The notes under the pieces are model-generated. The model had not been told where the DNA came from and searched no databases. It saw nothing but the letters and a program-made list of their open reading frames with translations. From the NCBI RefSeq assembly GCF_000236405.1, contig NC_016621.1, forward strand, positions 285,001 through 349,000: a stretch of DNA of 64,000 bases. The letters are read 5' to 3'. The DNA comes from Blattabacterium sp. (Cryptocercus punctulatus) str. Cpu. Its GTDB lineage: Bacteria; Bacteroidota; Bacteroidia; Flavobacteriales; Blattabacteriaceae. Below, piece after piece: positions 3,203 through 61,599 of this stretch (positions are counted from its first letter, which is position 1; each line of letters opens with the position of its first letter). A program made the position numbers and the translations under genes.

Positions 3203-6200
3203 ATGTATCTTATTGTTGATACCGAAACTACAGGATTACCTTCTTCCTATAATCTTCCTATTACCAATTCCGATAATTGGCCAAGAGTAGTACAAATAGC
3301 ATGGCAATGTCATGATATTTCAGGAAAAATAATAGAATTTAAAAATTTTATTATAAAACCGGATGGTTATGATATTCCTTATAATGCTTTTAAAATTCAT
3401 GGAATTACTAATGAAAGAGCAGAAAAAGAAGGAAAAAATTTAGATTTTGTGCTGAATCAATTTAAGAAATCATTTGAAAAATCTAAATGTTTAATTGGAC
3501 ATAATTTGGATTTTGATAGAAAAGTTATTGAATGTGAATTTTTTAGAATGAAAAAAGAAATTTCTTTTCTTGAAAAGAAATTTTTAGATACTAAAGAAGT
3601 TTCTGTTAATTATTGCAAATTACCTGGTATTAGAAAAAAATTTAAATGGCCTACATTAACCGAATTATACTATAAATTATTTGGAATAGATTTATCTAAT
3701 TTTCATCATAATGCGGAAAATGATGTAAAAGCAACCTCTCGTTGTTTTTTAGAACTTTTACGGATTGGAATTATATCCTATAATGATATTGGAATAGATG
3801 AATCCATCATCAAAAATTTTCGAGAATCTTTTCCAACTATTATTTCTTCCTCTATAGTTTTTTTAAATCCCCATAATAATCCCAAAAAAAATACAGAAAA
3901 AAAAATAGAAAATAAAATAATTAATAATAAGGAAAAATTAAAAAAAAAAAATATTCTCATATTCATAATCATACTTCTTTTTCTATTCTTTTTTTCAACT
4001 ATGGATCTTTTTTCCATGATAAATAAAGCTATATCCTGTAATATGCCTGCTATTGGAATAACAGATTATGGAAATATGATGGGGAGTTTCCATTTTTTAA
4101 ATATCATTCATTCTGTCAACAAAAAATATGCTTCATTGAAAAAATCCATAAAAGGAATTATTGGTTGTGAAATGTTTATTTCCGAAAATTATTTACAGAA
4201 AAAGTTTACTAAAGAAATACCGGATAAACGTTATCATCAAGTTCTATTATCTAAAAATAAAGCAGGATATCATAACTTATCCAAACTTTGTTCTTATGGA
4301 TTTTTAGAAGGCCTTTATGGTGGAATTCCTAGAATAGGAAAAAATTTGATTGAAAAATATAAGGAAAATTTAATTGCTCTTACCGGAGATCTCAATGCAG
4401 AAATTCCACAGATTATTCTTAATCAAGGAGAAAGAAAAGCAGAAAAGGTTTTTCTATGGTGGAAAGAACTTTTCGAAGAAGATTTTTACATAGAATTATT
4501 ACGTCATGGATTAAAAGAAGAAGACTATGTTAATAGGATACTACTTAAATTTTCAGAAAAATATCATGTAAAGTACATTATACAAAATAATACTTTTTAT
4601 TTAGATCAAAAAGATGCTGATGTTCATGATATTTTGCTTTGCGTAAAAAATGGAGAAAAACAATCAACTCCTATAGGTATAGGAAGAGGGTATAGATTTG
4701 GATTTCCCAATAAAGAATTTTATTTCAAAAGTACAGAAGAGATGAAAGAAATATTTTCAGATATTCCAGAATCTTTTGATTTCTTAGATGAATTAGTCAG
4801 TAAAATTGAATTTTATAATCTATCACAAAAAATATTACTTCCAAAATTTCAGATACCAAAAAATTTTGAAATTCCTTTAGATAAAAAAAATGGAGTAGAT
4901 ATAGTAGGGGAAAATTCTTTTTTAAGAAGTATTACATATGAAGGGGCTAAAAAACGTTATAAAAATATAACTAAGGAAATAGAAGAAAGAATTCACTTCG
5001 AATTAAAAACCATTGAAAAAATTGGATATCCTGGTTATTTTTTGATTGTTCATAATTTAGTTTCTCAAGCTAGAAAAATGAATATTTCAGTAGGACCTGG
5101 AAGAGGGTCTGTGGCTGGATCTGTAGTTGCCTATTGTATAGGTATTACTGAAATAGATCCCCTAAAATATCATCTTCTTTTTGAACGATTTTTAAATCCA
5201 GATAGAATATCTTTACCAGATATTGATATTGATTTTGATGATCGAGGACGTGAAAATATTATTGAATGGGTAGTACAAAAATATGGAAAAAATAAAGTTG
5301 CACAAATCATTACATATTCAAAAATGGGGGCGAAATCTTCTATTCGAGATACTGCTCGGGTATTAAATTTATCTTTAAAAGATACAGATCGTATAGCAAA
5401 AATGGTACCTAATTTTCTATCATTAAAAGTTATTTTATCTTCGGAAGTATTAGAAAATAGAAATAAGGAAGAAATAGAAAATATCAAAAAATTGAGAAAA
5501 ATTGCAGAAAATGAAGAAACTTTAGAGGGAAAAATTTTGCAAAAAGCAAAAAAATTAGAAGGATCTATAAGAAGTACGGGTATACATGCTTGTGGAATCA
5601 TTATCAGTCCATACGATATAAGAGAATATATTCCAGTTTCTATTTCTAAAGAATCCGATTTATTGTTAACACAATTTGATAACAATGTAGTAGAACATGC
5701 TGGATTATTAAAAATGGATTTTTTAGGATTAAAAACTCTTACTATTATTAAAGATTCCTTGAATCTTATAAAAAAAAACATCAATATTACAGAATTTTCA
5801 TTTTCTATAGAAGATTTAAAGACTTATTCTCTTTTTCAAAAAGGAGAAACCGTAGCTATTTTTCAATATGAATCTCCAGGAATGCAGAAATATTTACGCC
5901 AACTTAAACCTGATAAATTTGATGATTTAATTGCAATGAATGCATTATATCGACCTGGACCATTACAATACATTCCTAACTTTATTTCCAGAAAACAGGG
6001 AAAAGAAGAGATTACCTATGATTTACCAGAAATGAAAGAATTTTTAAAAGAAACTTATGGGATAACTATATATCAAGAACAGGTTATGTTAATATCCCAG
6101 AGAATAGCAGGTTTTAGCAAAGGAGAAGCCGATTTACTTAGAAAATCTATGGGAAAGAAACAAAAAGAGGAACTAAATAAATTGAAAAATAAGTTTCTTA

Positions 6201-7501
6201 ATCAAGCTATTAAAAAAGGATATCCCAAAAATATATTAGAAAAAATCTGGAAAGATTGGGAGTATTTTTCTTGCTATGCTTTTAATAAATCTCATGCTAC
6301 CTGTTATGCTTATATAGCATTTCAGACAGCTTATCTTAAAACGCATTTTCCCTGTGAATATATGGCTTCTGTATTAAGTAATCACATGGACAATATTAAA
6401 CAGCTCACTTACTTTATAAAAGAATGTAAGCGTATGGATCTATCGATTGTAGGTCCCAATATTAATGAAAGTGATGATTTTTTTAAAGTAAAAGATAAAA
6501 ATTGTATTCAATTCGGTCTTAGAGGAATAAAAGGTATAGGAGAAAATTCTGTAAAAATGATTGTTCAGGAAAGAAAAAAAAATGGACCATTCACTTCTAT
6601 TTTTAATCTGGTCAAACGTATTAATTTACGTATAGTGAATAAGAAAACTTTAGAAAGTTTAGTTTTATCTGGAGGATTAGATCAATTCCATTTACGTAGA
6701 GAACAGTATTTCCACTTTGAAGAAAAAAGTAAGTTAAGTATTTTAGAAAAAATCATTCAATTTGGATCTAAATACAAGAAAATAAACAAAATAAATAATA
6801 TTTCCAAAAAAAATATGGAAATAGAAAAACCCAGGATTATTGAATGTAAACCATGGAGTAATCTATATAAATTATATAAAGAAAAAGAAGTATTGGGAAT
6901 TTATGTGACTTCACATCCTTTAGATGATTATTTTTATGAAAGAAAATATTTTACAAATATATCTTTAGACCAATTAAATAAAAATGAACAAAAACTTATA
7001 GGAAAAAAAATATATATATGTGGAATTTTATCTAAAATTGAAAAAAAAATATATATCAAAAGTGGAAAAAAATATGGAATTTTTTTATTAGAAGATGATC
7101 ATTCTTCTAAATTATTTCGTATTTATGGACAACAATATTTAAAGTATGAACATTTACTATTTAGTAATAGCCTATTATATTTATATATTTTTATGGAACC
7201 CTCTAAAGAACGAAAAATACATATATTTCATATCGAAAGTCTACAAAATGTTTTAAAAAAATTTTCCCATAAATTGGTAATTAGGATAAATATAAAAAAC
7301 TTAGATAGCATAATTATTAATGATCTAGAAAAATTATTTTCTGAACAACCAATAGGATATAAAAAGCTGAATATTCTTCTTTATGATAAGGAAAATCATA
7401 TTTCTTTAAATTTTGAATCAAAAAAGTATGGAGTTGACATTAATTCCAGTTTTTTAAAAAAGTTGGAAAAAATAAAAGGGTTAGATTTTGCTTTGAATTA
7501 A
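3203..7501 (+). CDS. dnaE: DNA polymerase III alpha subunit with N-terminal 3'-5' exonuclease domain
   Basis: This is the replicative polymerase, 1432 residues. Residues 1-190 form a DEDDh proofreading exonuclease (VDTETTG, GHNLDFDRKV, HNAENDVKA), the arrangement usual in Flavobacteriia. Then come a Lys/Asn-rich linker, a PHP domain, the polymerase core with PDIDIDFDDRGR near residue 675, and a C-terminal OB-fold. The join between linker and PHP domain is abnormal. Residues 251-265 read as a hydrophobic string (IFIIILLFLFFF) where relatives have a histidine-rich HLHNHTQFS-like motif. In the -1 frame the same DNA reads YSHIHNHTSFSILF, bracketed by an A12 tract (3940-3951) and a T7 tract (3989-3995). 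The sequence after it (STMDLFSMINKA...ITDYGNMMGSFHF) is normal PHP. A TDH-type ligand position is Tyr here. The hydrophobic string should not be read as a real membrane segment. Confidence 0.95.
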   Translation: MYLIVDTETTGLPSSYNLPITNSDNWPRVVQIAWQCHDISGKIIEFKNFIIKPDGYDIPYNAFKIHGITNERAEKEGKNLDFVLNQFKKSFEKSKCLIGHNLDFDRKVIECEFFRMKKEISFLEKKFLDTKEVSVNYCKLPGIRKKFKWPTLTELYYKLFGIDLSNFHHNAENDVKATSRCFLELLRIGIISYNDIGIDESIIKNFRESFPTIISSSIVFLNPHNNPKKNTEKKIENKIINNKEKLKKKNILIFIIILLFLFFFSTMDLFSMINKAISCNMPAIGITDYGNMMGSFHFLNIIHSVNKKYASLKKSIKGIIGCEMFISENYLQKKFTKEIPDKRYHQVLLSKNKAGYHNLSKLCSYGFLEGLYGGIPRIGKNLIEKYKENLIALTGDLNAEIPQIILNQGERKAEKVFLWWKELFEEDFYIELLRHGLKEEDYVNRILLKFSEKYHVKYIIQNNTFYLDQKDADVHDILLCVKNGEKQSTPIGIGRGYRFGFPNKEFYFKSTEEMKEIFSDIPESFDFLDELVSKIEFYNLSQKILLPKFQIPKNFEIPLDKKNGVDIVGENSFLRSITYEGAKKRYKNITKEIEERIHFELKTIEKIGYPGYFLIVHNLVSQARKMNISVGPGRGSVAGSVVAYCIGITEIDPLKYHLLFERFLNPDRISLPDIDIDFDDRGRENIIEWVVQKYGKNKVAQIITYSKMGAKSSIRDTARVLNLSLKDTDRIAKMVPNFLSLKVILSSEVLENRNKEEIENIKKLRKIAENEETLEGKILQKAKKLEGSIRSTGIHACGIIISPYDIREYIPVSISKESDLLLTQFDNNVVEHAGLLKMDFLGLKTLTIIKDSLNLIKKNINITEFSFSIEDLKTYSLFQKGETVAIFQYESPGMQKYLRQLKPDKFDDLIAMNALYRPGPLQYIPNFISRKQGKEEITYDLPEMKEFLKETYGITIYQEQVMLISQRIAGFSKGEADLLRKSMGKKQKEELNKLKNKFLNQAIKKGYPKNILEKIWKDWEYFSCYAFNKSHATCYAYIAFQTAYLKTHFPCEYMASVLSNHMDNIKQLTYFIKECKRMDLSIVGPNINESDDFFKVKDKNCIQFGLRGIKGIGENSVKMIVQERKKNGPFTSIFNLVKRINLRIVNKKTLESLVLSGGLDQFHLRREQYFHFEEKSKLSILEKIIQFGSKYKKINKINNISKKNMEIEKPRIIECKPWSNLYKLYKEKEVLGIYVTSHPLDDYFYERKYFTNISLDQLNKNEQKLIGKKIYICGILSKIEKKIYIKSGKKYGIFLLEDDHSSKLFRIYGQQYLKYEHLLFSNSLLYLYIFMEPSKERKIHIFHIESLQNVLKKFSHKLVIRINIKNLDSIIINDLEKLFSEQPIGYKKLNILLYDKENHISLNFESKKYGVDINSSFLKKLEKIKGLDFALN

Positions 7502-11517: not shown

Positions 11518-12591
11518 ATGAAAAAAAATAATAGGAGTAAAAAGGCTATGCTTATATTGGAAGATGGAACTAAGTATGAAGCTTATCATTTTGGAGCTCC
11601 AGTTTCCTCTTCCGGAGAAGTAGTATTTAATACTGCTATGACCGGATATACGGAAAGTATGACGGATCCATCTTACAAAGGTCAAATTTTGACTTATACT
11701 TATCCTTTAATAGGAAATTATGGCATTCCTGCTCCATCTTCTAAAGAATCTATCCATGAATTTTACGAATCTGATAAGGTTCAAGTATCCGGCCTGATTA
11801 TTTCATATTATTCCAACCGTCCGTATCATTGGAATATGTATACGACTTTATCTGATTGGTTAAAAGAAAATGAAATTCCTGGATTATATGGGATAGATAC
11901 TAGATTTATTGCAAAAAAACTTATAAATAAAGGAGGATCCATGTTAGGTAAAATTTTAATAATGGAACAAGAAAATATTCCCTTTTATGATCCTAATAAA
12001 GAGAATCTTTCTAAAAAAGTTTCTACCTCTAAAAAAATCATATATGGAAATGGAAAATATAAAATATTACTTGTAGATTTTGGATTAAAAAATAATATTT
12101 TACGTTGTTTATTGCGAAGAAATTGTACCATAATAAGGGTCCCATGGGATTATGATTTTACGAAGGAAGAATATGATGGACTAGTCCTTTCTAATGGACC
12201 TGGAAATCCCCATATTTATGAAAAACCTATCTCCTATATTCGTATTGCTATGAAAAAAGAACGACCTATATTTGGGATATGTTTAGGAAATCAACTTTTG
12301 GGTATTGCTGCAGGAGGATATACTTATAAACTTCAGTATGCACATAGAGGACATAATCAACCGGTTGTATTTATAGAAACAGGACAAAATTTTATTACAT
12401 CCCAAAATCATGGATATGTTTTAGACACTACCAATATTTCTAGAGAATGGAAGATATTCTTTAAAAATTTAAATGATAACACTTGCGAAGGAATCATTCA
12501 TGATTTTAAACCTTTTTTTTCGGTTCAATTTCATCCAGAAGCATCCAGTGGACCGACCGATACCGAATTTTTATTCGATTTTTTTTATTAA
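11518..12591 (+). CDS. carA: Carbamoyl-phosphate synthase small (glutaminase) subunit
   Basis: The 357-residue subunit hydrolyses glutamine and channels ammonia to CarB, making carbamoyl phosphate for arginine and pyrimidines. The N-terminal half has the family-specific FNTAMTGYTESMTDPSY stretch. The C-terminal half is a class I glutamine amidotransferase with nucleophile Cys in FGICLGNQLLGIA, and His and Glu in QFHPEASSGPTD. Its location inside an arginine operon rather than with pyrimidine genes points to arginine-linked supply. The start at 11518 is 3 bases after the argD stop; an internal ATG at 11548 is an alternative. Confidence 0.96.
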   Translation: MKKNNRSKKAMLILEDGTKYEAYHFGAPVSSSGEVVFNTAMTGYTESMTDPSYKGQILTYTYPLIGNYGIPAPSSKESIHEFYESDKVQVSGLIISYYSNRPYHWNMYTTLSDWLKENEIPGLYGIDTRFIAKKLINKGGSMLGKILIMEQENIPFYDPNKENLSKKVSTSKKIIYGNGKYKILLVDFGLKNNILRCLLRRNCTIIRVPWDYDFTKEEYDGLVLSNGPGNPHIYEKPISYIRIAMKKERPIFGICLGNQLLGIAAGGYTYKLQYAHRGHNQPVVFIETGQNFITSQNHGYVLDTTNISREWKIFFKNLNDNTCEGIIHDFKPFFSVQFHPEASSGPTDTEFLFDFFY

Positions 12592-15861: not shown

Positions 15862-16821
15862 ATGAAAAGATTTTTTAGCGTTGAAGATGTTATAAACGTA
15901 TATGATATCATTAAAGAAGCCATAAATTTGAAGAAAAATCCATATTGTTTTCAACATATTGGGAAGAATAAAACAATTGGATTGGTATTTTTTAATCCTA
16001 GTTTACGTACAAGAATTAGTTGTCAAAAAGCTGCTTTTAACTTAGGAAGTAATACTTGGGTGTTAAATATTCATCGGGATTCCTGGAATATCGAAATGAA
16101 AGATGGAAATGTGATGAAAGATACTCAAGAACATATAAAGGAGGCTATTTCTGTAATGAGTTTATATTGTGACATTCTTGCAGTAAGAACTTTTCCTCAT
16201 CTTATAGACAGAGATTATGATTATAATGAAGTTCTTTTTAAGAAAATATTGAGCTATTCTAAAGTACCCGTAGTTAACATGGAAAGTGCTACTTTGCATC
16301 CTTTGCAGTCTTTAGCGGATGTAATGACTATTGCAGAATTTATACCTTTTTTTTCTAAAAAAAAATGTAAAGTAGTGTTAAGTTGGGCTCCTCATGTAAA
16401 GCCATTGCCACATTCTGTGGCAAATTCCTTTTCCCAATGGATATCCAAAATTGAAGAAATAGATTTAACCATTACTTGTCCAGAACAGTATGATTTATAT
16501 GAAGAATTTTCTAATGGAGTTTATACTACATATAACCAAAATGAAGCATTTTTAAATGCAGATTTTATTTATGCTAAAAATTGGAGTAGTTATCTAAATT
16601 ATGGAAAAATACTCTGTAATAATAATGATTGGATGATTACCGAAAGAAAAATGAAAATAACAAATAAAGCAAAATTTATGCACTGTTTACCTGTAAGGAG
16701 AAATATGGTAGTGGAAGATTCAGTTTTGGATAGTCCAAATTCCATTGTTTTGCAACAAGCAGAAAATAGAATTTATGCTTCGCAAATAATTTTCTTGAAA
16801 ATTTTACAATCTTTCTCATGA
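15862..16821 (+). CDS. argF': N-acyl-ornithine (acetyl/succinyl) carbamoyltransferase
   Basis: The 319-residue enzyme transfers a carbamoyl group to an N-acylated ornithine, the route used in Bacteroidota instead of ordinary ornithine transcarbamylase. It shows the carbamoyl-phosphate loop FNPSLRTRIS, the Bacteroidota-type MESATLHPLQSLADVMTIAEF, and MHCLPVRRNM near the C-terminus. At the position where acetylornithine enzymes have Glu and the succinylornithine enzyme has Pro (as I recall the published specificity switch), this protein has Gln in DTQEHIKEA. I prefer the start at 15862 (MKRFFSVEDV) because relatives start there; an in-frame ATG at 15844 overlaps carB by 11 bases. The argB ATG overlaps the stop (ATGA). 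Confidence 0.9.
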   Translation: MKRFFSVEDVINVYDIIKEAINLKKNPYCFQHIGKNKTIGLVFFNPSLRTRISCQKAAFNLGSNTWVLNIHRDSWNIEMKDGNVMKDTQEHIKEAISVMSLYCDILAVRTFPHLIDRDYDYNEVLFKKILSYSKVPVVNMESATLHPLQSLADVMTIAEFIPFFSKKKCKVVLSWAPHVKPLPHSVANSFSQWISKIEEIDLTITCPEQYDLYEEFSNGVYTTYNQNEAFLNADFIYAKNWSSYLNYGKILCNNNDWMITERKMKITNKAKFMHCLPVRRNMVVEDSVLDSPNSIVLQQAENRIYASQIIFLKILQSFS

Positions 16822-17609
16822 AAATACATATAGTAAAAATTGGAGGAAATTTAATTAGTGATCAAAAATGGCTTAATTTTTCTTTAAAAGAATTTGTAAA
16901 ACTACAAGGGAATAAGATATTAATTCATGGTGGAGGAAAAAAGGCTACCCTTATTTCTGATCAAATGGGGATTACTCCAAAATTTATACAAGGAAGAAGG
17001 ATTACGGATAAAGAAACGATTGACCTAGTTGTCATGACCTATGCTGGTCTTATAAATAAAAATATTGTCGCAAGATTACAATCTTATTACTGTAATGCTT
17101 TGGGATTATGTGGTGCAGATGGAAATTGTCTTAAGTCATGCTTCCGTTTAAAAAAAAAAAATACCGATATTGATTATGGATATGTAGGGGATATCACCAA
17201 TAAAAGTGTTAATACATATTTTATAAAATTTCTTTTGAAAAATAATATTGTTCCTGTATTATGTTCTATCACTCATAATGGTAAAGGAAATCTTCTAAAT
17301 ACGAATGCAGATACTATAGCTGCATGGATTGCTATATCATTGAAAAAGAATTTTAAGGATGAAATAGAGTTACATTTTTGTTTCGAAAAAAAGGGGGTAT
17401 TACGAGATTTACATGATGAAGAATCCTATTTAAAAAAAATAGATTTTACTTTATTTCAAATAATAAAAAAAAATCATACTATTAAAAATGGGATGATACC
17501 AAAATTAGAAAATGCCTTCCTTGCATTAAAAAATGGAGTATCTAAGGTAAGTATTGGTCATCCATATTATTTAAATGATCTTAATAATAAGACCATTATA
17601 TGTCTGTAG
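16818..17609 (+). CDS. argB: N-acyl-glutamate kinase
   Basis: This amino-acid kinase family protein (263 residues) phosphorylates N-acyl-glutamate, the second ornithine step. It begins with the conserved MKIHIVKIGGNLI, then LIHGGGKKATLISDQ and GLCGADGNC, and ends with a KNGMIPKLENAF lysine loop. It overlaps the transcarbamylase stop by four bases and the argE-like gene by ten. No N-terminal extension typical of arginine-inhibited hexameric forms is present, so it may not be feedback regulated; that is inference. Confidence 0.95.
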   Translation: MKIHIVKIGGNLISDQKWLNFSLKEFVKLQGNKILIHGGGKKATLISDQMGITPKFIQGRRITDKETIDLVVMTYAGLINKNIVARLQSYYCNALGLCGADGNCLKSCFRLKKKNTDIDYGYVGDITNKSVNTYFIKFLLKNNIVPVLCSITHNGKGNLLNTNADTIAAWIAISLKKNFKDEIELHFCFEKKGVLRDLHDEESYLKKIDFTLFQIIKKNHTIKNGMIPKLENAFLALKNGVSKVSIGHPYYLNDLNNKTIICL

Positions 17610-21201: not shown

Positions 21202-23127
21202 TCAATTATTCATCCGGATACGGTAAAAAAAAGTATTCGTTTTTTTTAAGTTCTTTTTTCCATAAAAAGAAATAATATTTTGAAGATCTGATAGATCTAT
21301 GAAAGGACATTGTAATCGGATTAATTCATTTTTATTGGAAAATAACAGGTCTCCTCTTCCAATGAGTTGTTCCGCTCCTGTGCAATCTAGTATGGTTCTA
21401 GAATCTATTTTAGAACTAACTCTAAAGGCAATTCTTGCAGGAAAATTAGATTTAATTAATCCAGTAATCACATCTACCGATGGACGTTGTGTAGAAATAA
21501 TTAAATGAATACCTACTGCACGGGATAACTGTGCTAAACGAGTGATATATATTTCTATTTTTTTTTGTTGAAAAGAAAAACTTAAATCTGCAAATTCATC
21601 AATAATTAGGATAATATAAGGAAAATGATATTTTTTTTCATATTTTATATTGTATTCTTTGATATTTCTTACCATAGATTTTTCCAAAAGATCATATCGT
21701 TTATCCATTTCTTTGCATAAAGAATTTAATATATTTTTTACTTCATATATGTTTGTAATGATAGGTTCTTTGGAATTAGGCAACATAGCAAAATAAGATT
21801 TGGAAATTTTTTTGTAAATAGATAATTCTACTTTTTTTGGATCAATCAAAATAAATTTAATATCTTCTGGATTTTTTTTACATAATAAGAATACAATTAT
21901 AGAATTTAATCCTACTGATTTTCCTTGTCCAGTGGATCCTGCTATCAGCAAATGAGGCATTTTTGTTAGATCTACAATAAAAGTTTCATTAAATACTGTT
22001 TTTCCTAAGGCAATGGGAAGTTCCATATTGGTACTTTTATTGAAACTTTCTTCTGAATAAAGGATATTTTTCATATATACGGTAGTAGTTGGATTATTTG
22101 GAACTTCTATTCCAATAGACCCTTTTCCCGGTATTGGAGCTATAATTCTTATACTTAAAGAAGATAAATTTAAAGCTATCTCATTTTCTAAATTTTTTAT
22201 TTTTGAAATTCGTACACCTACCTTAGGAAATATTTCGTACAAAGTGATATTAGGTCCTATAGTGGACTTTATTTGATCGATTCCTATTTTATAATAGTTA
22301 AGTATTTGTAGTATTTTTTTTTTATTATCTTTTTCTATATATTTTTCTTTTTTTTCTTCATGAATAGAAATAGAAGAAGATAAAATAGGGATATCTATCC
22401 TTCTTTTTTTTTCTTTAAAATTAATAAAAAATGGATGATTATTAATAGCATATTCCTTTTTTTCATATTTTTTATAATTGAAAAAATTTTTTTTAAAATT
22501 ATGGAATAATTTGAGGAATAGACCCTTATTGTCTTTGAAATTTTTTTCCTTTTCTTTTTTTAATTTTTTAGTATTTTTTATATGACTAAATATGATTACG
22601 TAATAAAGTAAAAAGCTAGTCAATACTAGAATTCCTAATCCTACTTTTCCCAATAAACTTATCAAAAAATTTCCTATTTCAAACCCAAAAATCCCACTTA
22701 ATATTCCATAATTAGGAAAAATAAGATAAAATGTGATTGGTATCCATATACTAAAAAATAAAAATTTATATGTTATGAATTTATAAATATTCAATAGAAG
22801 GATTCCTCTAAAAAGTATTTTTAACCCTATTAATAAAAAGAATATTGGAAAAAAAAAGGAACTAATTCCTATTCCACAGTGTATAAAATAGTGAGATAGA
22901 GTTGCTCCGATTTTTCCAAGTAAATTTTCTGCTACTATATCTTTATCAAAGAGTTGGTTAATTTGACTTTGATCATTTTTCCAATGAAAAATAAAAGAAA
23001 AAAAGCTTAAAAATAAGAATAGGCTATTCCCTAATAAAAAAAAACCAAAAATAGTTTCCATAATATTTTTTTTCTTTTTTTTCGTAAAATTTTTGTACAT
23101 TCTTTTATTTTGAATTTTATTATCCAT
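21202..23127 (-). CDS. ftsK: FtsK/SpoIIIE DNA translocase (lacks C-terminal gamma domain)
   Basis: The 641-residue ATP-driven DNA pump acts at the division septum. Several N-terminal membrane segments lie within residues 1-185, followed by a linker, an alpha domain (NITLYEIFPKVGVRISKI) and the RecA-like motor with Walker A GSTGQGKSVGLN and Walker B IILIIDEFADL. The motor ends in IGRGDLLFSN...LQCPFIDLSDLQNIISF, and the protein stops about 20 residues later. The winged-helix gamma domain that reads polar KOPS/SRS sites and contacts XerD is absent. Sequence-directed translocation is therefore doubtful, although the motor looks intact. Confidence 0.94.
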   Translation of the reverse strand: MDNKIQNKRMYKNFTKKKKKNIMETIFGFFLLGNSLFLFLSFFSFIFHWKNDQSQINQLFDKDIVAENLLGKIGATLSHYFIHCGIGISSFFFPIFFLLIGLKILFRGILLLNIYKFITYKFLFFSIWIPITFYLIFPNYGILSGIFGFEIGNFLISLLGKVGLGILVLTSFLLYYVIIFSHIKNTKKLKKEKEKNFKDNKGLFLKLFHNFKKNFFNYKKYEKKEYAINNHPFFINFKEKKRRIDIPILSSSISIHEEKKEKYIEKDNKKKILQILNYYKIGIDQIKSTIGPNITLYEIFPKVGVRISKIKNLENEIALNLSSLSIRIIAPIPGKGSIGIEVPNNPTTTVYMKNILYSEESFNKSTNMELPIALGKTVFNETFIVDLTKMPHLLIAGSTGQGKSVGLNSIIVFLLCKKNPEDIKFILIDPKKVELSIYKKISKSYFAMLPNSKEPIITNIYEVKNILNSLCKEMDKRYDLLEKSMVRNIKEYNIKYEKKYHFPYIILIIDEFADLSFSFQQKKIEIYITRLAQLSRAVGIHLIISTQRPSVDVITGLIKSNFPARIAFRVSSKIDSRTILDCTGAEQLIGRGDLLFSNKNELIRLQCPFIDLSDLQNIISFYGKKNLKKTNTFFYRIRMNN

Positions 23128-24356: not shown

Positions 24357-24950
24357 ATGAAAATAGGACTTTATTTTGGATCCTTTAACCCGATTCATTT
24401 AGGACATATTATTATTGCTAACCATATAGTAGAATTTTTAGATATAGATCATATTTGGTTCGTAGTCTCTCCACAAAATCCACTAAAAAAAAAAACGAAT
24501 CTTTTAGATTATGTTCATAGAGTTAAAATGCTTCGTATAGCCGTTTTCGGTTATAAAAAAATGAGTGTTCTAGATATAGAATCTGGATGTTCCCCTTCTT
24601 ATACAATTAATACACTTTATGTTATAGAAAAAAAATATCCTAAAGATAAATTTACTATCATTATAGGAATAGATACTTTATATTCTATCAAAAAATGGAA
24701 AAATTATAAAATAATTTTAAATAAATATGATATTTTTGTATACCCTCGTATTGGTACTTTCTCTAACTATAATCATTTTTTTATTCCTATTAAACATAAT
24801 AAAAATATTTTTTTGAAAGCGCCAATTATTGAAATATCTTCTTCTTTCATTCGAAATTCTATTCAAAAAGGAAAGAATATGAACCATTTACTTCAAACAG
24901 AAGTTTGGAAGTATATAAAAAAACATAATTTTTATAGAACAAAAAATTAG
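24357..24950 (+). CDS. nadD: Nicotinate-nucleotide adenylyltransferase
   Basis: The 197-residue enzyme of NAD synthesis joins nicotinate mononucleotide and ATP. It has the nucleotidyltransferase signature GSFNPIHLGHIIIANH near the N-terminus and the C-terminal ISSSFIRNSI motif that binds phosphates. Length is typical. It sits between the porin terminator and the convergent PolA-type nuclease, with a 12-base gap to the latter. Confidence 0.95.
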   Translation: MKIGLYFGSFNPIHLGHIIIANHIVEFLDIDHIWFVVSPQNPLKKKTNLLDYVHRVKMLRIAVFGYKKMSVLDIESGCSPSYTINTLYVIEKKYPKDKFTIIIGIDTLYSIKKWKNYKIILNKYDIFVYPRIGTFSNYNHFFIPIKHNKNIFLKAPIIEISSSFIRNSIQKGKNMNHLLQTEVWKYIKKHNFYRTKN

Positions 24951-56849: not shown

Positions 56850-57914
56850 TTATTGACAAAAACTTTCAATAATTTTTTTGCAATAATAGATAAGTTCACT
56901 ATATATCCACCTTATTATGACCTTTTTTTCTTGAATAGGATACAAAAGGTGAACATTTGCACCTGCATCTAGTGTAAAATAGATGTTTTTTTTACTTTGT
57001 TTTCTAAAATCCCATACTTTATGAAGTACGTGAAGTGTATTCGGTCTCATCCATAAAAAATAGGGATTTGAGGTCATGATCATAGCATGAAGATTTAAAG
57101 ATTCATGTTCTATTAATTCTCCAAATTTTGGAAAATCTCCTATTTTTAATATAGATATCAGTTGATCCATATTTCTATTAGCGAATTTTAATCTTTCTTT
57201 AGCATAAGGATGGTGATTCATTAATTGATGTCCTTTTGAACTTAAAATTTTTTTAGGTTCTTCATCTATTACTAAAATAGTATCCCAAATTTTTTTAAAA
57301 ATTGGGTGTATTTTATAGGGATAAGGGATAGAATAAAGATTATTACTCCCTTTTATTGATTTATGTTTTCCCCAAACTACAAGTCCTGGATATATTGATC
57401 TACAAGCACTTCCAGATCCTAATCTAGCTAAAAAAGAAGCTTTTTTTAAAAAAAAAGCTTCTTTTAAAGAAGAATCTAATTTTTTTTCTATTTCCATAAT
57501 ACATAAAGCTAAAGCACTCATAGAAGAAGCAGAAGAAGCAATTCCACTACTGTGGGGGAAAGTATTATCGGTTTTTATAACAAAATTAAAATATCGTAAA
57601 TAAGAACAATAAAATGATATTCTATGAAAAAATTCAAAAATTTTTGGGAGAAAATTAGTTTTTTCTTTTCCAGAAAAAAAAATTTTTATAGATCTTTTTT
57701 TTTTTCTATCTCTAAGATAATAAATTAGTTTTGTTACCGTATAAACCTTTTCTAAGGAATAACTAATAGAAGAATTCATCGGTATTTGAATTTTATTCTT
57801 TCGTTTTCCCCAATATTTTATTAGAGCTATATTAGAATAGCTCTTTTTGGTAACTACTCCATTTGAAACTATAGAATAGTTTTTTTTCTTATAAAAGAAA
57901 CAATTACTTTTCAA
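56850..57914 (-). CDS. mvaD: Diphosphomevalonate decarboxylase
   Basis: The 354-residue GHMP kinase family enzyme makes isopentenyl diphosphate, the last step of the mevalonate route to isoprenoids. It has NIALIKYWGKR near residue 28, the ATP loop HSSGIASSASSMSALAL and GSGSACRSIYPG. Flavobacteriia use mevalonate rather than the MEP pathway, which supports the taxonomic call. A roughly 20-residue N-terminal leader before NGVVTKKSYSNIALIKY is unusual and the real start may be internal. It follows the symporter by 30 bases. Confidence 0.93.
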   Translation of the reverse strand: MKSNCFFYKKKNYSIVSNGVVTKKSYSNIALIKYWGKRKNKIQIPMNSSISYSLEKVYTVTKLIYYLRDRKKKRSIKIFFSGKEKTNFLPKIFEFFHRISFYCSYLRYFNFVIKTDNTFPHSSGIASSASSMSALALCIMEIEKKLDSSLKEAFFLKKASFLARLGSGSACRSIYPGLVVWGKHKSIKGSNNLYSIPYPYKIHPIFKKIWDTILVIDEEPKKILSSKGHQLMNHHPYAKERLKFANRNMDQLISILKIGDFPKFGELIEHESLNLHAMIMTSNPYFLWMRPNTLHVLHKVWDFRKQSKKNIYFTLDAGANVHLLYPIQEKKVIIRWIYSELIYYCKKIIESFCQ

Positions 57915-60070: not shown

Positions 60071-60739
60071 TTATAACTCCTTAGAAGAATTTTTTATAGA
60101 AAATGGGCCTATACGTTCTCTTCTTAAAGAAAGAAGATAGGCACCACTTTTTATCTTTATTCCGAAATCTTGGGCTATAGATCGAATATAAGTTCCTTTT
60201 CCACATTCTATCAAAAATTTTATATAAGGTATTCCAATTTTTAGAATATGAAATTGATAAATTCTTACTCGTCTAGGTTTCATATTTTTTATTTTTTTCC
60301 CTTTTCTAGCATATTCATAAAATCGCTTGCCTTCTATTTTTAATGCCGAAAAACAGGGGGGGTATTGATTTATTTCACCAATAAATTTTTTAGATATTTT
60401 TTGAATAAGTTCAGGAGTTATGTGGGAGGTAGAAGAAAAATTATATTCTTTAGTTTCTGAATCAAAAGATGGAGTTACACATCCCATTTTTATAATACCT
60501 GTATAAGTTTTTTTATAATTTTGAATAGAATCTACTTTTTTCGTATATTTTCCTGTAAGAATTATTAAAAGTCCTGTTGCAAGAGGATCTAGGGTTCCAG
60601 CATGTCCTATTTTTATTCTTTTAGAAAAACAAATTATTTTTTGTTTAATCCTTTTCACCACTTCAAATGAAGTCCACCCCCACGGTTTATCTATTAATAA
60701 TAGCTTCCCTTTTTCAAATTCTGAACAATTTTTTATCAA
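60071..60739 (-). CDS. truB: tRNA pseudouridine-55 synthase
   Basis: The 222-residue enzyme makes pseudouridine 55 in the T-loop of all tRNAs. It has the KPWGWTSFEVVKRIK opening and the catalytic Asp in GHAGTLDPLATGLL. The C-terminal PUA domain of longer homologues is absent, as in other short Bacteroidota forms. Its ATG overlaps the uppP stop by four bases, an order also found in flavobacteria. Confidence 0.95.
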   Translation of the reverse strand: MIKNCSEFEKGKLLLIDKPWGWTSFEVVKRIKQKIICFSKRIKIGHAGTLDPLATGLLIILTGKYTKKVDSIQNYKKTYTGIIKMGCVTPSFDSETKEYNFSSTSHITPELIQKISKKFIGEINQYPPCFSALKIEGKRFYEYARKGKKIKNMKPRRVRIYQFHILKIGIPYIKFLIECGKGTYIRSIAQDFGIKIKSGAYLLSLRRERIGPFSIKNSSKEL

Positions 60740-61599
60740 AAATTTTCAATTGGTTTAATAAAATAATGTATAATAATGAATATAATTCCAAAAATAATTC
60801 TATAATATCCAAATATTTTAAAATTATTTTTTTTTAGATAGGACATAAAACATTTTATAGATAAAATTCCTGTAATAAAAGAAACTATATTTCCAACTAA
60901 TAATAATTTTATATTTTCTTGTAAAAAAAATTTTTTATCTATTATTGGAAAAATAAAAAATCTACGAACATTCAATGAAAAAATAAAATACTGGAATTGA
61001 AAGTAATGATCAAATAATTTTTTACATGTAGCAATAAAAATAACAGGAAAAGATAAAAAAAAAGAAAATTCAATTGCCTTTCTTCTTTCAATATTTTGTA
61101 ACATACCGGATACTATAGTAGTAGCGCTTCTAGATACTCCTGGAATAATTGAAAAACATTGTCCTAATCCAATAATAAATGCTTTAAAATAAGTTATTCT
61201 ATAGTCTTTATTTTTATAATTTTTTTTTTCATATAAATTTTCCACTATCAAAATAATTATTCCTCCTATAAAAAGAAAAATAGCTACCATAAGTGGATTT
61301 TTACTAAAAAAAAAATTTATTTTATTTTTTAATAAAAAACCAACAATTAATATGGGTAAACTAGCTATAAAAATTTTTAAATAAAAATCAAATTTTTGAA
61401 AAAAAAATTTTTTTCTGTATAAAAAAACTAATGAAAAAACAGCTCCAAGTTGAACAGATATTAAAAATAATTTTGTTATTTTTTTCTCTAAAATACCCAT
61501 TAAGGAAGCTAAAAGTATCATATGTCCTGTAGAAGAAATAGGAAAAAACTCTGTAATTCCTTCAATAATTCCTAATAGGATTGATTGGATATAATTCAT
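60736..61599 (-). CDS. uppP: Undecaprenyl-diphosphate phosphatase
   Basis: This 287-residue polytopic inner membrane protein recycles the lipid carrier of peptidoglycan and LPS sugars. Both active-site motifs are present: EGITEFFPISSTGHM near the N-terminus and PGVSRSATTIVSGM in the middle. About eight membrane segments are visible. It is coupled to truB by a four-base overlap and lies 71 bases after the gyrB stop. Confidence 0.95.
   Translation of the reverse strand: MNYIQSILLGIIEGITEFFPISSTGHMILLASLMGILEKKITKLFLISVQLGAVFSLVFLYRKKFFFQKFDFYLKIFIASLPILIVGFLLKNKINFFFSKNPLMVAIFLFIGGIIILIVENLYEKKNYKNKDYRITYFKAFIIGLGQCFSIIPGVSRSATTIVSGMLQNIERRKAIEFSFFLSFPVIFIATCKKLFDHYFQFQYFIFSLNVRRFFIFPIIDKKFFLQENIKLLLVGNIVSFITGILSIKCFMSYLKKNNFKIFGYYRIIFGIIFIIIHYFIKPIENF

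Follow-up and report, generated by a model that had tools for sequence, protein, structure and literature searches.

A scrambled PHP motif between two homopolymer tracts in the dnaE record of a Cryptocercus Blattabacterium is probably a fault of the deposited sequence

An active PHP site has nine ligands, which in order are H, H, D/H, H, E, H, C/H, D/N and H (Table 1 of PMC3666897, from the part available), and in E. coli Pol III mutations at the PHP site lower the stability of the enzyme (section 9 of the same partial source). The Bacteroidetes are named among the exceptions to the conserved PHP metal site, and a fused exonuclease is reported for them (available part of PMC3919608). Here we describe a window of 64,000 nucleotides (positions 285,001 to 349,000 of contig NC_016621.1) from the genome of the Cryptocercus punctulatus symbiont, strain CPU (G000), which comprises 609,561 bases in two contigs of 605,745 and 3,816 bases, and compare it with its nearest relative (G001) and the rest of the genus. 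As a separate observation, the G000 plasmid is up to 98.4% identical, over 81% of its length, to plasmids of B. punctulatus, and NC_017925 (3,423 bases, Blaberus giganteus symbiont) and NZ_CP029809 (3,419 bases, C. punctulatus symbiont) match it with equal score, identity and span; these two are possibly one plasmid under two names. A further B. punctulatus strain, CPUwf, is represented by its plasmid record (NZ_CP029819), and in the sources searched a second chromosome of this species did not turn up.

We found that dnaE of the window (3203 to 7501, forward strand) encodes one chain of 1432 amino acids, the single match to this protein in the G000 genome, in which Pfam and NCBIfam domains follow one another as a DEDDh-type exonuclease, a linker, a PHP domain, a polymerase and an HhH region, that is, the Bacteroidetes-type DnaE1 architecture with an N-terminal exonuclease fused to DNA polymerase III alpha. 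The exonuclease domain (Pfam RNase_T, residues 4-180) occupies 3212 to 3742. Downstream of it lie an A12 tract (3940 to 3951), which is the longest A or T tract within dnaE, a segment of 37 bases (3952 to 3988), a T7 tract (3989 to 3995) and the remaining PHP domain in its ordinary frame (Pfam PHP, residues 266-435; 3998 to 4507). The open frame (frame 3881) continues through the A12 tract and encodes KKKNILIFIIILLFLFFFSTMDLF, with the hydrophobic string NILIFIIILLFLFFF after the tract, and the -1 frame across the same segment encodes KKKKYSHIHNHTSFSILFFN. The conserved motif YSHIHNHTSFSILF is thus found in the -1 frame, displaced from the open frame by the hydrophobic string. The A12 tract is one base too short for an in-frame motif and the frame is restored at T7, so that two shifts of opposite sign enclose an open stretch. 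A preliminary description of the locus had pointed to the two tracts, to the hydrophobic string between them and to the PHP motif in the -1 frame, all of which the frame translations confirm; its reading of opposite one-base changes that preserve the overall frame also holds, the 1432 codons being open throughout, and the stretch replaced by the shift comes to about 14-16 residues. We compared the two out-of-frame readings of each of the 49 dnaE genes with the genus consensus; over 10 residues the top score was 60 in G000 and 63 at the same place in G046, the symbiont of Nauphoeta cinerea, with scores of at most 36 elsewhere, and the hidden motif is therefore far above chance. The plasmid of G046 matches NC_022551 at 100%. 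The window holds a second A12 tract, at 17150 to 17161, within the open frame 16818 to 17609.

When comparing 49 Blattabacterium genomes, with one genome per species, we observe that ligand histidines 1 and 2 of the motif are in frame in 47, the exceptions being G000 and G046. Apart from these two and G010, in which the gene is split, all 46 genomes read dnaE in one open frame with the motif. In G001 the motif is in frame, with A9 followed by G and, further on, T6, which is also the length of the T tract in G047. The 37 bases between the tracts do not differ between G000 and G001, and this only says that the change is recent or absent. The owner of the pair is clear, as the G001 reading scores 74-84 against six other genomes and the G000 reading 1-9. 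Across the genus the A tract at the motif ranges from A4 to A13, with A12 again in G046. Furthermore, in a protein tree of the part of dnaE after the motif, G000 stands beside G001 and G046 beside G020, both partners having an intact motif, and this placement forces two origins.

We consider it probable that the A12/T7 pair is a fault of the deposited sequence and not of the organism. The long A tract would have been called one base short and the nearby T tract one base long in a 454 record, the frame would have stayed open by chance or the tract lengths would have been adjusted until it was open, and the PHP motif of the symbiont itself would then be ordinary and in frame, as in its relatives. 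Sequencing on the 454 platform is known for homopolymer errors. The CPU genome was read on this platform (Table 2 of PMC4567559, from the part available). A uniform scan, in which one or two further genomes decided the owner of each frame-keeping indel pair and the first and last 15 residues of genes were ignored, assigned 5 pairs in 55,279 codons to CPU (G000), 5 in 36,991 codons to Bge (G042) and 1 in 36,630 codons to BOR (G045; one further pair was not open), all three being 454 records. The same scan assigned no pair to the Illumina records BGIGA (G044; 34,884 codons) and BPAA (G017; 36,887 codons), nor to G029, G005, G016, G012 and G021 (34,495 to 39,175 codons each). Pairs are thus concentrated in the 454 records, with 11 in the 128,900 codons of the three versus 0 in the 258,182 codons of the seven other genomes, of which two are verified as Illumina, at a similar divergence from the reference throughout (90.0-94.5% amino acid identity). 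If pairs fell evenly across codons, the chance of all 11 lying in the 454 share would be 5.6e-6; with only the two verified Illumina records for comparison it would be 0.0077. Leaving aside two pairs of unsure owner, these values become 5.0e-5 and 0.019. The pair, the platform and the excess of pairs in 454 records are direct observations; from them we infer that the dnaE pair would be one such error, and in what way its frame may have been kept. Of the three alternatives named in the preliminary description, that of paired record errors now has the strongest support.

Several aspects of this tally bear on how it is read. The genomes G001, G020 and G046 were left out of the main count. A mirror run assigned 2 pairs to G001, which are mirror images of G000 pairs, and 1 pair to G020, in a 389-aa gene, and with these doubtful pairs given to G001 (2) and G020 (1), 9 of 12 pairs lie in 454 records (chance 5.1e-4). 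As to the owner of the two mirrored pairs, comparison points to G000 as the odd one for the first in the single comparable genome, and for the other in four of six genomes. A control with distant references assigned no pair in any of eight comparisons between genomes free of pairs, and none to G001 or G020, and it recovered 2 of the 5 Bge pairs and 1 of the 5 CPU pairs (the dnaE pair not among them); since so few known pairs were recovered, its zero is weak, and the argument rests on the close comparisons rather than on this control. Additionally, a 243-aa gene has opposite shifts at the same two A tracts, with the same signs, in both the CPU and the Bge record; these two genomes belong to different parts of the genus tree.

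The recurrence in G046 was first taken as strong independent support for a real event and was dropped, the same signature being present in metG and in genes of 376 and 170 amino acids. In about 185 kb, G046 has 4 frame-keeping pairs, in dnaE and these three genes; in each, the A tract lacks one base relative to G020 and a loss of two bases comes after it. All four losses fit the first two bases of G020's first shifted-frame stop, with neighbouring placements fitting equally well in dnaE and the 170-aa gene, and the chance of four of four at the first stop is 1.4e-6 if losses are even between tract and stop. A fifth case, in the 389-aa gene, fits by eye and was not counted, as the automatic assignment gives it to G020. 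Besides the pairs, the scan assigned 13 unpaired shifts to G046, and 11 of its 14 tract-length differences from G020 are shorter in G046. The G046 record looks like one of undercalled tracts and some frame repair, rather than of mutation, and it is poor support for a real event, since it appears edited. Conservation of the hydrophobic string in relatives, which had been suggested as the sign of a real protein sequence, is likewise not what we find: the string is present in one of 48 other genomes, and that one is G046, whose record bears this mark of editing. Two faulty-looking records can in this way yield a convincing story of convergence, in which a second species has the same scrambled motif.

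The window record also holds counter-evidence. Tract lengths are equal between G000 and G001 in 1471 of 1485 cases, and by length in 1073/1074 (5-6 bases), 210/212 (7 bases), 124/129 (8 bases), 44/47 (9 bases) and 20/23 (at least 10 bases), one of the two unequal 7-base tracts being T7 of dnaE itself. Because tract lengths otherwise agree so well with the sister genome, a T6 miscalled as T7 is unlikely. Random 454 error alone was rejected as a full account, since it should leave unpaired internal shifts and none of the 4 candidates was assigned to G000 in the pair scan, which excludes gene ends; some frame-guided adjustment must therefore be assumed, and the pairs are the sole evidence for it. 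Moreover, third-position substitutions relative to G001 number 5 of 14 in the five shifted segments of G000, without excess, compared with 206 of 375 elsewhere in these genes, and in a 641-aa gene of G000 the shifted-frame stop is gone by substitution, as in a real old shift. Taken together, the tract agreement, the lack of unpaired shifts, the substitution pattern and the lost stop indicate that there may be real events among the five pairs. Near gene ends, carA (11518 to 12591, forward strand) has T8 close to its 3' end in G000 versus T7 in G001 and G047, and an FtsK-like gene (21202 to 23127, reverse strand) has A8 close to its 3' end versus A9 in the same two genomes; C-terminal residues are altered in both.

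The most credible rival, which we nevertheless hold to be unlikely, is a real compensated double frameshift, in which an A was lost and a T inserted about 40 bases further on, before the first shifted-frame stop, so that the length was kept and only the first strand of a non-enzymatic PHP domain was scrambled, with proofreading in the fused exonuclease; slippage may have bridged the intermediate. The reliable tract lengths elsewhere in the record and the absence of any unpaired internal shift assigned to G000 speak for it, and the tract, as the longest A or T tract of dnaE, is a likely hot spot. The state of the PHP domain is a further point in its favour. We mapped the ligand positions through an alignment to Taq and found that in the genus position 4 is Y in 48 genomes and C in one, position 7 is D in all 49 and position 9 is F in all 49, and that in an outgroup made up of the best 80 loci of a longer list position 6 is Q, position 7 is N or S and position 9 is Y or F, in 80 of 80 each. 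A consensus residue of the metal site is hence missing at positions 4, 7 and 9 in 49 of 49 genus genomes and at 6, 7 and 9 in these best 80 outgroup loci, so that the loss of positions 1 and 2 alone would cost no enzyme activity. The preliminary description had spoken of lost presumed metal ligands: these are indeed canonical positions 1 and 2, but the site to which they belong was already incomplete. The catalytic residues of the exonuclease are kept in the genus: motif I has its D and E, and motif II its D, in 48 of 49 genomes (one gap each, which we take to be the split G010), and motif III has its H and D in 49 of 49. With an incomplete PHP metal site and these exonuclease residues retained, a real change might be tolerated.

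Against a real pair stands the near-invariance of the motif, which 47 of 49 genomes keep in frame, with His at position 1 in 80 of 80 of the best outgroup loci, and which so seems to be under selection without metal binding; combined with the loss of stability that PHP-site mutations cause in E. coli Pol III (PMC3666897, in the part available), the conservation of His 1 and 2 suggests that the strand matters for structure. In AlphaFold2 models, the rest of the PHP domain is alike in G000 and G001, as a real pair would allow, whereas the segment has lower confidence in G000 (block means 61 and 35) than in G001 (90 and 56); we give this result little weight, as the alignment pulls the model towards the family fold. 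Furthermore, no pair was assigned to any of the seven comparison genomes, and the sole parallel, in G046, comes from a record that looks edited. Slightly less probable is the fuller account in which an essential polymerase lost its PHP motif through two opposite homopolymer slips, slippage on A12 bridging the way, and kept the PHP domain as a scaffold with proofreading in the exonuclease.

The preliminary description had also raised a rescue by slippage, which we consider very improbable here. The dnaE gene of G000 is not net out of frame at its long A tract, and because the frame is already kept overall, slippage is not needed to keep it. In translations of the record, a +1 slip on A12 runs into a stop behind YSHIHNHTSFSILFFNYGSFFHDK, 24 residues past the tract, and a -1 slip into one behind IFSYS, sooner still; single slips would harm dnaE rather than rescue it, as either cuts the protein off close behind the tract. 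In the relatives with an in-frame motif, a -1 slip would give the exonuclease with a short, mostly hydrophobic tail. We rejected the A tract as a programmed site for making a free exonuclease, because its length changes from A4 to A13 across the genus and A runs may be explained otherwise: in DNA of 26-28% G+C, Lys codons would create them unaided.

It is very improbable that the true gene has lost its frame at the A tract alone and is kept by transcriptional slippage, perhaps like nadD, with T7 as an error or edit. G046 also has A12 there, and in two insect endosymbionts slippage at long poly(A) tracts corrects 12-50% of transcripts (PMC5009743, in the part available), but the 46 genomes that read dnaE in one open frame with the motif argue against it, and about 30% full-length transcripts, as in Blochmannia (PMC3017870, in the part available), would be costly for one replicative polymerase. 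The nadD gene (24357 to 24950 in the window, forward strand), which lends this reading some support, has its frame broken at an A tract, at about codon 47, in 37 of the 48 genomes with both halves, the offset counted in threes being one base in 29 and two bases in 8 (G030 has no usable match), and in the 135 codons after the tract no stop occurs in any of the 48. Counting substitutions in ten pairs of near relatives, with one genome used twice, we observe that 125 of 272 after the tract are at third positions, more than a third, versus 28 of 39 before it. The lack of stops and the third-position excess indicate that the downstream part remains under selection, though of a weaker kind than the first part, and make nadD a candidate, on sequence grounds, for genus-wide dependence on transcriptional slippage. 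The window nadD reads in one frame, unlike that of the closest relatives, G001 and G047, and, coming from a 454 record, may itself be in error. Among the papers searched, none treats nadD of Blattabacterium and a single one, on Walczuchella, brings Blattabacterium together with a frameshift and dnaE; the available parts of PMC6128925 and PMC9603385 yielded no mention of a frameshift. Among the Cryptocercus symbiont genomes G001 and G047, uncompensated shifts are also seen in an mvaD-like gene (the G047 counterpart of 56850 to 57914) and a uppP-like gene (the G001 counterpart of 60736 to 61599), with A12 and T11 tracts across the two. Least probable of all is a programmed double slippage in which a fraction of the transcripts acquires an A and drops a U and both a normal and a scrambled polymerase are made, for although both changes lie in homopolymers, one transcript would have to undergo two opposite slips, a lone +1 or -1 slip brings a stop soon after the tract, and the tract is not conserved in the genus.

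A fault of the deposited sequence thus remains the reading that we prefer, and frame-keeping indel pairs that are unshared by a third genome offer a simple screen for faulty records. If the pair were real, it would test whether the PHP motif becomes dispensable to a replicase when a fused exonuclease has taken over proofreading. Homopolymer assembly errors of the 454 platform likewise consist of one-base changes in A or T tracts, and here the frame-keeping pairs exceed what independent errors would give. Among described systems, Bacteroidetes DnaE1 (PMC3919608, in the part available) likewise has an exonuclease, a linker and a PHP domain without the conserved metal site, and the window dnaE differs in that the first PHP strand is frame-shifted in the record. 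The variant PHP domain of E. coli Pol III (available part of PMC3666897) is comparable in that ligand positions are lost and the domain is kept for structure; it has lost single PHP residues, whereas the window dnaE would have a whole strand replaced. The bridging of frame-shifting indels (described in the available part of PMC3812077) is like a real pair in dnaE in that slippage makes a shift tolerable until a second change arrives, but that case is the laboratory drift of one gene, unlike the window dnaE. Finally, the poly(A) frameshifts of Buchnera and Blochmannia (PMC5009743 and PMC3017870, in the parts available) share with this locus a long A tract in an AT-rich endosymbiont gene that is one base from frame, but those genes are out of frame and restored by slippage, whereas the window dnaE is already back in frame downstream.
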